Source: Tissierellia bacterium (lineage in GTDB: Bacteria; Bacillota; Clostridia; Tissierellales; Tepidimicrobiaceae). From it: DNA of 64,000 nt. Shown piece by piece: positions 756 to 7,468 of the stretch (position 1 is the stretch's first letter; every line of letters starts with the position of its first letter). A model generated the notes under the pieces. The model was not told the DNA's origin. It was given only the letters and a program-made list of their open reading frames with translations, and ran no database searches. The position numbers and the translations under genes were made by a program. The stretch covers positions 32,537 through 96,536 of the forward strand of contig DUMS01000002.1 of the NCBI GenBank assembly GCA_012839745.1. The letters run 5' to 3'.

Positions 756-2414
756 TTAAGCTTCCATGAACATCTTTATATCGTCTTCAACGTTTGAAAT
801 GGTTCCTATTCCGAATTTTTCCACCAATACCTTGGCTACATTTGGTGACAGGAATCCTGGCAGTGTTGGTCCCAGGTGGATGTTCTTTACTCCCAGGTAT
901 AACAATGCCAACAATACTATTACAGCTTTCTGTTCATACCATGCAATGTTGTATGCAATTGGCAGGTCATTTATATCTTCCAGTCCAAATACTTCCTTTA
1001 GTTTCAATGCTATTAATGCCAATGAATATGAGTCATTGCATTGCCCTGCGTCCAATACTCTTGGAATTCCATTTATATCTCCCAGGTTCAGCTTGTTGTA
1101 TTTGTATTTAGCACATCCTGCTGTAAGAATTACTGTATCTTTTGGCAGAGCCTTGGCAAATTCTGTATAGTAGTTTCTTTGCTTCATTCTTCCATCGCAG
1201 CCTGCCATTACGAAGAATTTCCTGATTGCTCCTGATTTAACTGCTTCCACTATCTTGTCAGCTAAAGCAAATACTTGAGCATGAGCAAATCCTCCAATAA
1301 TCTTGCCTGTTTCTATTTGAGTTGGTGGTGGAAGCTTCTTTGCATGTTCAATTATTTCTGAGAAATCCTTTGGCTTGCCATCTACTCTATCTGGGATATG
1401 CTTAAATCCTGGATATCCTGTGGAGTTTGTTGTATATACTCTATCAGCATATGTTTCCTTTGGTGGTACCAGGCAATTTGTTGTAAATAGAATTGGTCCA
1501 TTGAACTTTTCAAACTCTTCTCTTTGTTTCCACCATGCATTACCATAGTTCCCTACAAAGTGTTTATATTTCTTAAATGCTGGATAGTAGTGAGCTGGCA
1601 GCATTTCACCGTGTGTATATACATCTACTCCAGTACCTTCTGTTTGAATTAGCAGCTCTTCCAGGTCTCTCAAATCATGACCTGATACTAATATTGCAGG
1701 ATTGTTTCTGGTTCCGATGTTTACTTCTGTAATCTCTGGGTTTCCGTAGGTTGATGTATTTGCTTTATCTAAAAGTGCCATTACCTTAACGCCGTATTCC
1801 CCGGTTTTCATTGTCAAGTTAATCAGGTCCTCTACAGTCAGGCTATCGTCCATTGTAGCTGCCAAAGCCTTTCTCATGAACTTGGCAATTTCCGGATCAC
1901 TATATCCAAGGTTATCTGCATGTTCTGCGTAAGCAGCCATACCCTTTAGTCCGTAAGTAATAAGCTCTCTTAATGAGCGGATGTCTTCATCCTTTGTAGC
2001 CAATACTCCAACTCTTTCCTTATCGTTATTTGCCTTATATACTATTTCATCATCTGAATTAACTGAGAAAGTAGCAGCATCCTTCAGGTTGCTTAAATCT
2101 ACTCCTCTTTCCATCAGGTTTGCCTTAATCTCGTCTCTCAGTTTAAGTCCTTCTTTAATCTTCTTTAAAAATCTTTCCTTATCAAAGTTTGCATTTGTAA
2201 TTGTCATAAACAGACCATCCATTATGAATCTATCCAGACCAGGTACTTCATATCCAATTTCGTCAGCTTTTACACCTACCTCTGAAATACCCTTTAGTGT
2301 ATAGATCATTAAGTCCTGTAAGTTTGCCAGGTCTGCTGTCTTACCGCAAACACCTACTTTTGTGCAGCCTTTTCCTCCTGCAGTTTCCTGACATTGATAA
2401 CAAAACATAGACAT
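756..2414 (-). CDS. hcp: Hydroxylamine reductase (hybrid-cluster protein)
   Basis: [26 protein letters not shown]-terminal Cys motif and full-length Hcp-like sequence (552 aa). Confidence 0.95.
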
Positions 2415-2492: not shown

Positions 2493-2515
2493 GGGGGCAA
2501 AAAATTTCAGTCTTA

Positions 2516-3001
2516 TTATTTTATTCTTAATACCATCCTTGTTGTTTCAAGCTTATGACCAAAAAAGTCCTCTTCTATATTACCTACTGTTTCAAAATTT
2601 TTTGCCTTTTAAAATTCCTTGCCAATAATATTTTTAGACTCCACGCTAACTAATACTTTTCTGGGAGAAAGCTCTTCTATTCCCTGCTTTAACAGCTTTG
2701 AACCAATACCTTTTCTTTGGAACTCCGGAAGCAAATATATAGCTGCCAACTCTACTTCACCATTATCTTTCAAATTAGAAAAATTGGCAAAACCAACTAC
2801 TTGTCAGTTAACCTCTGCAACGTAAAAAGGTGATGTTTCTAATCGCTTTTTCAAGGTATCCCTGCTATATGCCATAGACAGAAATCTATCCTGTATTTCA
2901 ATGGGAATGATACCATCATATGTATGATGCCAGCTTTTAATTGCAATTTCCTTAACAGTATCTATATCTGTCAGTTTCATTTTTCTAATAACCACAGCCA
3001 T
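2516..3001 (-). pseudogene. GNAT N-acetyltransferase with two in-frame nonsense codons
   Basis: One continuous frame reads ...FYVAEVN(TGA)QVVGFANF...YLLPEFQRKGIGSKLL...GKEF(TAA)KAKNFETVGNIEEDFFGHKLETTRMVLRIK*. Confidence 0.8.
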
Positions 3002-3117
3002 TTGCTCACCTCCAAGGATTTTTTACATATATGCCAATTGTTTTTGTGTTTAAACCTTTATTTCATAATATGACAGTAAAATCTGATAAATCAAATATTC
3101 CAATGCAAAAAGCATAA

Positions 3118-3155: not shown

Positions 3156-3407
3156 TTAATAGTCCTTTCCAGCAGCCATTACATTTTTTGGGTCAAAGGC
3201 ATGACATGGAGTAACTCCATATACCATCCCGCATTTAGGGCACTTTGCTTCATGGGTTTCCATTGTAAACTCCTCTCCGCATTCCTCACATTTTATATCA
3301 AGGGGCATTATCATAGGCTGTTTTGCAAACCCCATCATCCTTATTTTATCCACTACCTGCTTGCCATTTTCAAATTTACCTGAACATCCTTCATGCATTT
3401 TTATCAT
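3156..3407 (-). CDS. Small zinc-ribbon protein (CxxC...CxxC)
   Basis: 83 aa ORF with IKCEECGEEF...AKCPKCGMVY. Confidence 0.7.
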   Translation of the reverse strand: MIKMHEGCSGKFENGKQVVDKIRMMGFAKQPMIMPLDIKCEECGEEFTMETHEAKCPKCGMVYGVTPCHAFDPKNVMAAGKDY

Positions 3408-3563: not shown

Positions 3564-3638
3564 AAAACCAGACATGAGAACCGTCCCCTCTGCACCCTCT
3601 GCACTAAAACAAGACAAAAGAACCGTCCCTTTTGCACC
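3564..3638. repeat. Two tandem 33-bp REP-like units (AGAACCGTCCC core)
   Basis: 3564-3596 and 3606-3638 match at about 28/33 positions; core GGGACGGTTCT on the minus strand. Confidence 0.7.
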
Positions 3639-3639
3639 T

Positions 3640-4656
3640 TTATATTGAATCGATTATGAGCCCTATTCTTAAATCATTTCTCATTTTTTGAATTATGCTG
3701 TCCATCCTTTCCAGCTCTTCCAATACCTTTTTTTCCTCTTTGCTTGTTTCTATGATTTTATCTATTCCTCCGTTTTTGATTACAATCCTTTTATCTGCCA
3801 TAAGGGCTAGTATAGGGTCATGGGTTGCTATGAGGACTATCTTGTCGCTGGAAACCAATAGGTTTAATGCCTTTTTCCTATCTATTCCTGCATTTTCTAT
3901 TTCATCTATCAGCACTATTGGTGAGGAGCTTAATATTGCTGTATCCGCAATCATAAGGGCTCTGGATTGACCACCGCTTAGGCTTGTTATCTGGGAATTT
4001 AGGTCAAATTTCTCCCCTGATAGATTATTTGCTGCTTCTATTATCTCCTTTATCACTTCCTCTTCCCTTTCTACCATCCTGCTCTGAGCATGTAGTTTCA
4101 AAAACTCATATACTGTTAGATCCATTACGAAATTCATATTCTGTGATAGCTGAGCCACCAGCTTATTGTTGGAGGAAAATCTCCACTTCATATCAGGAAC
4201 TTCTCCATTTATGAGGATTCTCCTCTTTGTAGGCGTATCCCCTTGAGCAGCCCATTCAATATCTGCCAAAAGCCTGCTCTTTCCTGAACCTGTAGGACCA
4301 ACTATGGATACTATTTCTGATTTCCTAATGGTAAACTCTTCAAAGTTCTCCTTCTTTCCGCTTTTATCCGTTCCAGCTACAATGGTAAGGGATTCAATGC
4401 CCCGATCCTCTTCAAGTCCCAAAAATTCTATCATCTGAGATATATATTCCAGCAATCCTTCTCTAATGCCCTTTATATCTATTCCCCACTCTTCAATTTC
4501 CTCTTCTGAGAAATGATTCAGGTATTCATCGAAGGTACTGTTTTCAAATCCTTCCACATCTAGCCTGTTTTCTTCAAAATAGTTTATTACAAAAGGGTAT
4601 TTCTGCTGCAATTCCTTCAGCGTGAGAGCATTCAAAATGTTATTCATATTCATCAC
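3640..4656 (-). CDS. ABC ATPase with N-terminal DUF1858/ScdA_N-like region
   Basis: GPTGSGKS Walker A, LSGGQ signature, IVLIDEIENA Walker B; N-term LKELQQKYPFVINYFEENRLD. Confidence 0.8.
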   Translation of the reverse strand: MMNMNNILNALTLKELQQKYPFVINYFEENRLDVEGFENSTFDEYLNHFSEEEIEEWGIDIKGIREGLLEYISQMIEFLGLEEDRGIESLTIVAGTDKSGKKENFEEFTIRKSEIVSIVGPTGSGKSRLLADIEWAAQGDTPTKRRILINGEVPDMKWRFSSNNKLVAQLSQNMNFVMDLTVYEFLKLHAQSRMVEREEEVIKEIIEAANNLSGEKFDLNSQITSLSGGQSRALMIADTAILSSSPIVLIDEIENAGIDRKKALNLLVSSDKIVLIATHDPILALMADKRIVIKNGGIDKIIETSKEEKKVLEELERMDSIIQKMRNDLRIGLIIDSI

Positions 4657-5350
4657 CTAATTTTATCTTTCTTACGTTTCCCATCTGATAGTCTTCACCT
4701 ATCCTTGTTTCACCCAAGCAGTAGGAGCATAAGGCTGAAGGCATTGGGAATCTTAGGCTTTCTCCCTGAACTGTTTCTATGTCCTCCTCTTCATTATACA
4801 ATAATGTGCTTAGCTCAAAGGCTCCCTGACCCGTCAGCCCGTTTATATGGAGGGTAATAGCTTTTGGATTTACTGAATTAACCCTGGATGCAAATACCTC
4901 CCGTTCTGCCTGGCTGACAATATCTCCCTTTGTGATTACCACTATATCAGCAGCTTTCAGCATTGGCCCAATTTTCTTTGGAGTGTTTATTCCTGATAGA
5001 TTATCTATTACACATACAGATTTAATACTTCTTATATATGGAGAGCACCTGTTGCAAAGCCCCGCTGATTCTGTAATTAATAAATCAAGATTTTTCTTTC
5101 TTCCCCACTTTACTACTTCTTCTATATTGCTTACAAAATAGTGGTCTGGGCAAAGGGACCCAGACAATCCTTTTTTCACTGGAATACCTGCTTTTTCATA
5201 CAACAGGTCATCATCTGTATATAAGCAGTCAAATTTAACTACCCCTACAGATAGTCCCCTATCCTTAAATGCTTCTATTACCTTCAATATTACAGAGGTC
5301 TTCCCGGATGATGGAGGGCCTGATACTGTTACTAAATTCATATATATCAC
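4640..5350 (-). CDS. HypB/UreG/CobW-like GTPase with Cys pairs
   Basis: GPPSSGKTSV P-loop, VITKGD, ESAGLCNRC and C-terminal CSYC. Confidence 0.8.
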   Translation of the reverse strand: MIYMNLVTVSGPPSSGKTSVILKVIEAFKDRGLSVGVVKFDCLYTDDDLLYEKAGIPVKKGLSGSLCPDHYFVSNIEEVVKWGRKKNLDLLITESAGLCNRCSPYIRSIKSVCVIDNLSGINTPKKIGPMLKAADIVVITKGDIVSQAEREVFASRVNSVNPKAITLHINGLTGQGAFELSTLLYNEEEDIETVQGESLRFPMPSALCSYCLGETRIGEDYQMGNVRKIKLGDEYE

Positions 5351-5353
5351 CTC

Positions 5354-6577
5354 TTAAGCTTCTTCAAATATCCTTTCACATTCCTTTATTAATTTACCTA
5401 TGTCATTTTTCTTTATATAATCCCAGCCAAGCCACATATATTTGTTATCCTTATCCACCTTATTTTCCACCTCAGGGTTTGTGCTTGGGAATCTTCCATT
5501 ATGAGCCAGTATCTCCCCTACTTCCTTTGAAGCAAAGAAGTCTACAAAAGGCTTAAGCTTATCCTTTTTGGATCCCTTGCTCAACAGGAATATTGGGCTT
5601 ATAATTGCTCCATCCTTTGGCCAGACTGCCTTCATAGGCCCATTTTCCTTAGTCATCTTGGTAAAGAAATAGGGCATTATGGTAACAGCTGGTCTTTCCT
5701 TCTTCATATGGGATTTTACCATTTCGGAAGGATGCATCCCCTTAAACAAGGCCTTTTTTAGCCCTTTTACTCCTTCTACTCCATATACCTTATATATGTT
5801 TAAAAGTATTGCATTAAACAGGTCAAAATCTCCTATAGGCAAGCTTACCCTATTTTCAAATTCAGGCCTGAATAAATCCTTCCAGCTGGTTGGCATATCT
5901 ATCCCTTCTAATTCTTCCGTGTTCACAAGAAATACTGCCGGCACTACTCCTATAATGGAATACTCTCTATCCGGGTCAATAAGGCTTATATACTCATTGT
6001 CAAAATCCTCATTTAGCTTGTCAAATCCCGTTATATCCTCAAAGGTTCCCATCTTCCTGAATTTACCCATAAGCCTATTATCAAAGAAAAGGTCAAAACC
6101 TGCAGATATAAACAAATCCGATAAGGCTTCCTCTGACTCTGCGTTTTTAATTTCATTTTTTAACCAATCAACCCCTTGGGCTGCAGCATTTAATTCATAG
6201 TCAACAGTTACATTTAAGCTGTCCTTCTCCTCTTCCAGCCACTTGTTAAAGGCTTCCATCAGAGGAATTCTCACAGGGCAGGGAAGAACACCTCCTATTC
6301 TTATATCTGCTTTTTCTTCTCTTTCTCTCTCTACAAGGCTTATGTCTTCAGAAACTCTATTCTTCTCTATTACATCTACAAGCTTTTGAACAAATTGTTC
6401 TACATTTATCTGCTTGCTTTTTAATGCCATCTCCAATGAAATGGTTCTCCCCATGGTCTTTCTCATGCTTTCATTGGCTAATGGCTTAAATCCGTTGGCG
6501 ACAAACACATCTATAGTCTCAGGATATTTCTCTGTTATATCATATACCTTATCCTTTATATCAAAATACTTATTCAT
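5354..6577 (-). CDS. DUF1858-like domain fused to an ABC substrate-binding-protein fold, no signal peptide (predicted cytosolic)
   Basis: N-term YDITEKYPETIDVFVANGFKPL; C-term resembles iron-type binding proteins; no hydrophobic leader. Confidence 0.75.
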   Translation of the reverse strand: MNKYFDIKDKVYDITEKYPETIDVFVANGFKPLANESMRKTMGRTISLEMALKSKQINVEQFVQKLVDVIEKNRVSEDISLVEREREEKADIRIGGVLPCPVRIPLMEAFNKWLEEEKDSLNVTVDYELNAAAQGVDWLKNEIKNAESEEALSDLFISAGFDLFFDNRLMGKFRKMGTFEDITGFDKLNEDFDNEYISLIDPDREYSIIGVVPAVFLVNTEELEGIDMPTSWKDLFRPEFENRVSLPIGDFDLFNAILLNIYKVYGVEGVKGLKKALFKGMHPSEMVKSHMKKERPAVTIMPYFFTKMTKENGPMKAVWPKDGAIISPIFLLSKGSKKDKLKPFVDFFASKEVGEILAHNGRFPSTNPEVENKVDKDNKYMWLGWDYIKKNDIGKLIKECERIFEEA

Positions 6578-6645
6578 TTATTTCCCTCCCAGGCACTAGG
6601 TTCTTCGTTTTCTCTAATGCTTATTATATACAAAATTAAAAAAAA

Positions 6646-6667
6646 TTCGGTAACATCTGTTACCGAA
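6646..6667. promoter_or_regulatory. 22-bp palindrome upstream of the DUF1858/GTPase/ABC cassette; may also act as a terminator for the upstream gene
   Basis: TTCGGTAACA-TC-TGTTACCGAA; shares GTAACA-N2-TGTTAC with the hcp site; T-rich tract follows on the minus strand. Confidence 0.65.
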
Positions 6668-7468
6668 TCAGGAAGCACGAGGCCATGGATTTTCAGGTGT
6701 ATAATCATCTTCCCTGGTTATATACTCATAAATATATTTTTCCACATTAATTCCAAGCTTTCTCAAGCCTTCATTTCCAAACATGACATTATACTCAAGT
6801 ATATATAGCTTGTCTTTAACGACTGCTACATCAAACCCTGCGTGATTTACCTTTAAAGTCCTTGCCACATCCTCCACCAGCTTTATTGCTTCATATGGAA
6901 TATTATTATAATCATAGGAAGCACCCTTGGCAATATTGTTGTGGAAGGACCCTTCCCTTGCTATTCTCCAGTAGGCTCCAATTACATGGTCTCCCACAAA
7001 TACAATTCTTAAATCCCTGTCTATAGGGAGCCTTTCCTGTATATACAGTGATTCATTGTTATTAATATAGGTTAGCAGTTCCTGTCTGTTTTCTATAAGG
7101 TATACCCCTCTTCCCATGGAATTCTTGATTTCCTTGGCTACTAACGGGTATCCAAACTCTTCTTCAATGGGTTCAATATCTGCCAAATCCCTGTTGAGTA
7201 TCCTCGTATATGGTACGTTTTCGGGGAAAGTGCATTGCAACACCCTGGTAGTTTCTATTTTGTTGTGTCCAAGGTGATATGTGTTTATGCTGGGAAATAT
7301 CTTTTTATTCAATCCATATACCAATGCATTTACCTGCCAGTACTCAGGAAACAATATATAATCAGCTTTTTTAATTCTTTCTATTTCTCTGAACATGTTT
7401 TCAGGTTTAATATAGGATACATTTGGTATTCCCAAAGTTCTAAAAGGATTAAAAGTAATGAATTCCAT
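6668..7468 (-). CDS. RimK-like ATP-grasp ligase
   Basis: FGYPLVAKEIKNSMGRGVYLIENRQEL... and VNHAGFDVAVVKDKLYILEYNVMFG. Confidence 0.75.
   Translation of the reverse strand: MEFITFNPFRTLGIPNVSYIKPENMFREIERIKKADYILFPEYWQVNALVYGLNKKIFPSINTYHLGHNKIETTRVLQCTFPENVPYTRILNRDLADIEPIEEEFGYPLVAKEIKNSMGRGVYLIENRQELLTYINNNESLYIQERLPIDRDLRIVFVGDHVIGAYWRIAREGSFHNNIAKGASYDYNNIPYEAIKLVEDVARTLKVNHAGFDVAVVKDKLYILEYNVMFGNEGLRKLGINVEKYIYEYITREDDYTPENPWPRAS

Follow-up and report, generated by a model that had tools for sequence, protein, structure and literature searches.

Gene content and layout of the locus

The window analysed here is the whole stretch of 64,000 nt, within which three minus-strand open reading frames (ORFs), hereafter the trio, form a tight operon encoding a protein with a substrate-binding protein (SBP) fold, a GTPase and an ABC ATPase. 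A gap of 3 nt separates the SBP and GTPase genes, and the GTPase and ATPase genes overlap by 17 nt, in agreement with the tightly packed three-gene cassette of the original prediction. The conserved neighbourhood also takes in a downstream zinc-ribbon gene (3156-3407) and hcp (756-2414). The features of the locus are as follows.

5354-6577, minus strand: SBP-fold protein with DUF1858 and SBP_bac_6 domains, 407 aa (Pfam, AF2)
4640-5350, minus strand: HypB/UreG-like GTPase, 236 aa (Pfam, AF2, ligand alignment)
3640-4656, minus strand: ABC ATPase without a permease, 338 aa (Pfam)
3156-3407, minus strand: zinc-ribbon (or rubredoxin-like) protein, 83 aa (neighbourhood conservation, alignment of members)
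756-2414, minus strand: hcp, hybrid cluster protein, the proposed client (TIGR01703, 787 bits)
6650-6663: HcpR2-type operator 5' of the trio, exact GTAAC-N4-GTTAC
2479-2492: HcpR2-type operator 5' of hcp, exact GTAAC-N4-GTTAC

None of the NCBIfam matches listed for the trio proteins reached its cut-off. No curated family describing the trio was found, nor a paper in the open-access literature, and the claim that the trio is undescribed has so far held; it is a real Hcp-associated module which is apparently new.

Three further elements were observed around these genes. Between hcp and the zinc-ribbon gene, the minus strand at 2500-3002 carries what resembles a GNAT-type acetyltransferase gene; its reading frame is broken by two in-frame stops, and it appears to be a pseudogene. 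Just 3' of the ATPase gene, at 3577-3635, lies a short repeat containing AGAACCGTCCC in two copies (0.01 expected in the window), which we take to be reminiscent of the REP-like elements of Clostridia. A RimK-like ATP-grasp ligase gene (6668-7468, minus strand) ends 4 nt from the trio operator.

Conservation of the neighbourhood and of its operator

A scan of 84,980 species genomes returned 438 relatives of the GTPase, and the best 80 loci (80-92% identity to the GTPase) were examined; being the nearest homologues, and in part related among themselves, they do not give independent counts. The loci come from Tissierellia, Clostridia, Halanaerobium, and fusobacterial and Leptotrichiaceae MAGs, together with single MAGs labelled Marinifilaceae and Cloacimonadota. 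The original prediction had left the synteny of the trio to a survey of this kind, and the gene order proved conserved throughout, with the SBP gene directly 5' of the GTPase gene in 80/80 loci (median gap 18 nt) and the ATPase gene 3' of it in every locus that could be tested (79/79; the median overlap, judged from the ends of the matches, is 5 nt). On the same strand and less than 4 kb downstream of the trio, hcp was found in 41 of 60 testable loci, with a further 7 carrying it upstream, and the zinc-ribbon gene followed the ATPase gene at a distance of up to 3 kb in 36 of 64 testable loci. Where hcp was missing from the examined DNA (33 loci), 29 of the genomes carried it above the cut-off elsewhere, so that 76/80 trio genomes have hcp; the other four of the 33, with no hcp above the cut-off, are possibly incomplete MAGs. 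The link between the trio and Hcp is strong. In the reverse direction, hcp was present above the cut-off in 213 of 300 genomes of the phylum, and an SBP-DUF1858 relative at E 1e-15 in only 12. As most genomes with hcp lack the trio, Hcp is not generally dependent on it and is accompanied by it only optionally; in E. coli, Hcp is made active without it.

Hcp has been under study for three decades, and a 2023 structural study of a class I Hcp, which gives the electron donor of this class as unknown, described genes syntenic with hcp as systematically absent and used this as an argument for a general electron donor (PMC10210160). For the lineages examined here, the trio loci contradict that systematic lack of synteny. 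A 2020 study could not demonstrate stable CODH activity in E. coli for an Hcp homologue from Ca. Galacturonibacter, naming the need for other proteins as one possible cause among several (PMC7000372); the genome of Ca. Galacturonibacter carries the trio.

The promoter palindrome which the original prediction had seen as common to the trio and hcp was confirmed as GTAAC-N4-GTTAC at 6650-6663 and 2479-2492, the only two such sites in the window even when one mismatch was allowed. The HcpR2 consensus is GTAACnnnnGTTAC, with hcp the core member of the HcpR2 regulon, and the main text of the same study does not name the trio as a member (Rodionov 2005, PMC1274295). An operator of this HcpR2 type does lie 5' of the trio operon. 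Two or more operator sites arose in 16/100 shuffles of the window, and the window count alone is therefore not significant. Across loci, the exact operator was present 5' of the SBP gene in 47/75 cases against 0.1 expected from mononucleotide shuffles, rising to 57/75 against 0.5 expected at one mismatch, and 5' of hcp in 27/48. As an internal control, the regions upstream of the GTPase and zinc-ribbon genes were inspected, and the operator was found there in none of the loci. This cross-locus conservation is significant. Genome-wide operator counts by themselves were not, control patterns being about as frequent or more so, and the operator argument therefore rests on position and conservation and not on number. 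The genome of the window has a third exact match, which locus layout places inside an Rnf-like ORF and which was set aside. Several Halanaerobium loci carry the variant GTGAC-N4-GTCAC.

An HcpR2-like query gave matches in 8/8 relatives; in the window's own genome, which is 86% complete, it gave weak Crp/Fnr matches only, with no clear HcpR2 regulator. In a related genome (G228), the gene of an Fnr-like regulator is divergently oriented to that of the SBP-fold protein. Another exact site, seen in Clostridium sp. Cult1 and [C.] ultunense, separates the gene of an HcpR2-like regulator from a divergently oriented ArsP_1 permease pair, of which one half includes a ferredoxin domain. The pair beside its HcpR2-like regulator resembles the C. 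tetani permease/ferredoxin operon as outlined in PMC1274295. Divergent arrangements of an HcpR2-like regulator and an ArsP_1 permease that is split and has a ferredoxin domain at its C-terminus were observed in L168:1498-3499, L042:16630-18584 and L073:6176-8586; in L073 a cupin-like gene follows and the pair is located directly upstream of the trio.

The proteins of the module

The GTPase belongs to the cobW/HypB/UreG family (PF02492, E 1.8e-13; 50.9 bits against a Pfam cut-off of 20.7) and lies far under the NCBIfam equivalog cut-offs of both HypB (46.9/121.2 bits) and UreG (28.9/204.2 bits), so that it is not classed as HypB or UreG as such. Across 30 homologues, the most distant of them at 39% identity, no change occurs in the Cys and His residues of CPDH (67-70), GLCxRCxP (97-104) and CxxCxG (208-213); the P-loop and an ESAG motif are equally invariant. 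The AF2 model (pLDDT 84) found its best Foldseek matches in HypB of A. fulgidus, M. jannaschii and H. pylori (2wsm/2hf8/4lps) and in UreG (4hi0/5xkt). In profile alignments, Cys67 and His70 fall on positions 100/101 of the HypB chain, with the GLCxRC pair flanking position 132, and Cys67 falls on Cys66 of the UreG CPH motif. With an offset of five, HypB positions 100/101/132 are presumably Cys95, His96 and Cys127, the metal ligands of M. jannaschii HypB. The HypB/UreG-like GTPase with Cys pairs put forward originally is thus upheld by Pfam, by Foldseek and by the invariant CPDH, GLCxRC and CxxC motifs. Its placement in the metallochaperone class with HypB-like metal ligands is supported, and from these residues the protein likely binds metal.

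With the HypA/HypB and UreG nickel delivery systems the module shares a SIMIBI-type GTPase fold, aligned Cys/His residues and a small zinc-ribbon protein alongside. In contrast to HypB and UreG, however, the trio GTPase has the additional GLCxRC and C-terminal CxxC motifs, has obligate ABC ATPase and SBP-fold partners, and is linked to hcp and not to hydrogenase or urease. The zinc-ribbon protein gave sub-threshold HypA and rubredoxin-like matches, that to HypA covering only the zinc-ribbon stretch (23.6/28.9 bits in Pfam, 20.8/88.1 in NCBIfam). HypA itself was rejected, as the scores are below the family cut-offs and the match leaves out the nickel-site half; the protein might act as an adaptor in the manner of HypA or donate electrons in the manner of a rubredoxin.

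In the SBP-fold protein, Pfam placed DUF1858 (PF08984) at residues 7-63 (E 1.6e-19) and SBP_bac_6 (PF13343) at residues 152-391 (E 2.8e-79), and Cys100, in an LPCP motif, and His282 are invariant in 39 homologues. On structure comparison the AF2 model (pLDDT 87) was nearest to P5PA, AfuA and FbpA, which bind pyridoxal-phosphate, hexose phosphate and Fe3+, respectively, the likeness being to the C-terminal fold of about 300 aa (TM-score about 0.62-0.68, target-normalised). Unlike these SBP_bac_6 proteins, that of the trio is cytosolic, fused to DUF1858 and without a permease. The lack of a signal peptide claimed originally was verified by hydropathy, taken as the highest mean over 12 residues within the first 45 residues of each protein: no hydrophobic leader was seen in 52 homologues, which peaked at 1.73, against 2.56-3.25 for secreted binding proteins from related loci on the same measure.

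The lack of a permease stood as well. On the same strand and within 400 nt, the trio had a membrane protein gene on its upstream side in 9/72 loci and on its downstream side in 5/67; the ones scanned came from unrelated families (ABC exporter, chromate transporter, BacA, EamA and GntP), so that no conserved adjacent permease was found in the homologous loci. An SBP-dependent ABC importer was rejected on these signal-peptide and permease tests. A looser version, in which the trio is an ordinary ABC importer with its permease encoded elsewhere, could appeal to the SBP and ABC ATPase genes lying within one operon and to relatives in which an HcpR2-like regulator, carrying the same operator, stands in divergent orientation to an ArsP_1 permease with a ferredoxin domain. 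ArsP_1 is, however, not an ABC permease, and the absence of a signal peptide in all 52 homologues, the N-terminal DUF1858 of the binding protein and the invariant partnership with a GTPase make this version very improbable.

The third protein carries an ABC_tran domain (PF00005, E 1.6e-16), preceded by about 85 aa that are weakly DUF1858-like: PF08984 matched in 10/37 homologues (best E 4.5e-4), and a profile comparison with the SBP N-terminus gave E 3e-4 at 40% probability. A role in anti-phage defence was rejected, since PADLOC returned ATPase-type matches only, to the ABC ATPase alone, and none for the other two proteins.

Both N-termini had been likened to ScdA_N in the original prediction, and for each the relation to DUF1858 was retained, clearly so in the SBP-fold protein and marginally in the ATPase, and the ScdA_N part was not, no ScdA_N match being among those listed. 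The associated link to RIC-type Fe-S repair was not borne out. ScdA/RIC (YtfE) combines ScdA_N with a C-terminal di-iron domain, and the trio proteins match neither; Pfam found no di-iron hemerythrin-like domain in any of the three, on which ground a RIC-type (ScdA/YtfE) repair protein was rejected, and the DUF1858 domain of the SBP-fold protein is without a conserved cysteine. A RIC-type mechanism thus does not follow. The trio might still be a functional analogue of RIC, that is, a general system for repair of or response to NO-damaged Fe-S or metal proteins with no particular tie to Hcp, and the HcpR2-type operator, the small helical DUF1858 domain with its earlier likening to ScdA_N and the predicted metal-binding GTPase would fit such a role. 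Set against it, however, are the missing di-iron domain, the cysteine-free DUF1858 and a synteny which is specifically with hcp, and we consider it improbable.

Paralogous modules and the proposed role of the trio

The GTPase and ATPase pair is found again, in other company, in paralogous modules. Three of these show 63-71% identity: L113 and L115 contain an SBP_bac_6 protein, which in L113 also has DUF1858, and in L112 such a protein lies beside FecBCD-like importer genes and a methyltransferase gene. In L123-L125, at 54-56%, a cytosolic SBP_bac_6 protein occurs together with a second, secreted binding protein, with permeases of the BPD_transp_1 type and with a Crp/Fnr regulator in divergent orientation. 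In L127-L142 (e.g. L127:5509-7672), where identity is about 40%, the ATPase-GTPase pair is followed by a protein of about 220 aa with a PF04060 Fe-S motif, which no NCBIfam family names. No CODH was noticed next to the class 2 paralogous modules when the N-terminal sequences of CODH-sized ORFs were read by eye. As the pair recurs with other partners, it has the look of an all-purpose engine for handling metals or ligands, and the class in the window is its Hcp-attached version.

Because the paralogous modules adjoin importer genes, and not hcp, a link of the trio to uptake has to be taken seriously, and the original statement that the trio is not an ordinary importer holds for its anatomy (no permease, no leader) without extending to uptake as a whole. 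The main rival reading is accordingly that the trio carries out the part of metal or ligand acquisition that takes place in the cytosol, a role not specific to Hcp, in which the SBP fold and the two NTPases receive and allocate what a separate importer brings in, hcp being merely a co-regulated neighbour and the NO response raising the demand for the metal or ligand. The modules beside FecBCD-type importer and methyltransferase genes (L112) and beside a secreted binding protein with BPD_transp_1 permeases (L123-L125) favour it, as does the nearness of the SBP fold to binders of metal, sugar-phosphate and pyridoxal-phosphate. In contrast, however, the Hcp-linked class has no conserved importer nearby, nearly all trio genomes have hcp (76/80), and within the window only hcp and the trio carry the operator. 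We regard acquisition as possible and the less probable reading.

Many anaerobic bacteria have the trio as a fixed gene set, and the shared control signal and the frequent adjacency to hcp instead suggest that it is probably a machine which builds, repairs or services the metal centre of Hcp. We infer a soluble, nucleotide-driven metallochaperone complex serving Hcp under nitrosative stress, to which we assign a probability of roughly one half; loading or repair of the hybrid cluster would best explain the data, at about even odds. More tentatively, the metal-binding GTPase, the membrane-free ABC ATPase and the cytosolic binding-protein fold may make up a complex dedicated to hybrid-cluster assembly or repair. 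Hcp is proposed as client because of the gene order, the operator, the synteny and co-occurrence with hcp, the GTPase ligands, the HypA-like zinc-ribbon gene and the lack of a permease and leader. Weighing against this reading are the many hcp genomes that lack the trio, the activity of E. coli Hcp in its absence, the four trio genomes in which no hcp passed the cut-off, the paralogous modules next to importer genes, and the failure to identify an HcpR2 regulator in the window's own genome. The delivery or repair machine for a metal or cofactor originally envisaged is thus favoured by the metallochaperone-class GTPase and the hcp link, in a form which is not of the RIC type.

In the proposed mechanism, an HcpR2-type Crp/Fnr regulator would govern the trio and hcp jointly. 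The GTPase would bind metal at its CPDH/GLCxRC site and release it upon GTP hydrolysis, the cytosolic binding-protein fold would supply a ligand or metal complex or dock the client, and the ABC ATPase would act as a motor which opens or remodels the complex or Hcp, with the DUF1858-type N-termini perhaps joining the subunits. The outcome would be an Fe-S-O hybrid cluster that is built, reactivated or repaired. Such a scheme recalls CODH maturation by CooC, CooT and CooJ, in which nucleotide-driven accessory proteins act on an enzyme of the Prismane/CODH superfamily; CooC is, however, a different P-loop NTPase, and no Coo protein was among the family matches of the trio. The open-access literature yielded neither an Hcp-specific maturation factor nor the same NTPase combination for any metallocofactor.

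A neighbourhood fixed across many genera offers candidate partners for Hcp, namely the GTPase, the ATPase, the binding protein and the zinc-ribbon or rubredoxin-like protein, and with these named the building, reduction or repair of Hcp becomes directly testable. It also points to an ABC ATPase employed in soluble form together with a cytosolic substrate-binding fold, which recurs in the paralogous modules with other partners. Two of these, L112:6439-15418 and L118, place the GTPase, ATPase and cytosolic SBP genes beside FecBCD-like importer genes and a small methyltransferase gene, and possibly represent an undescribed metal-chelate handling cluster.
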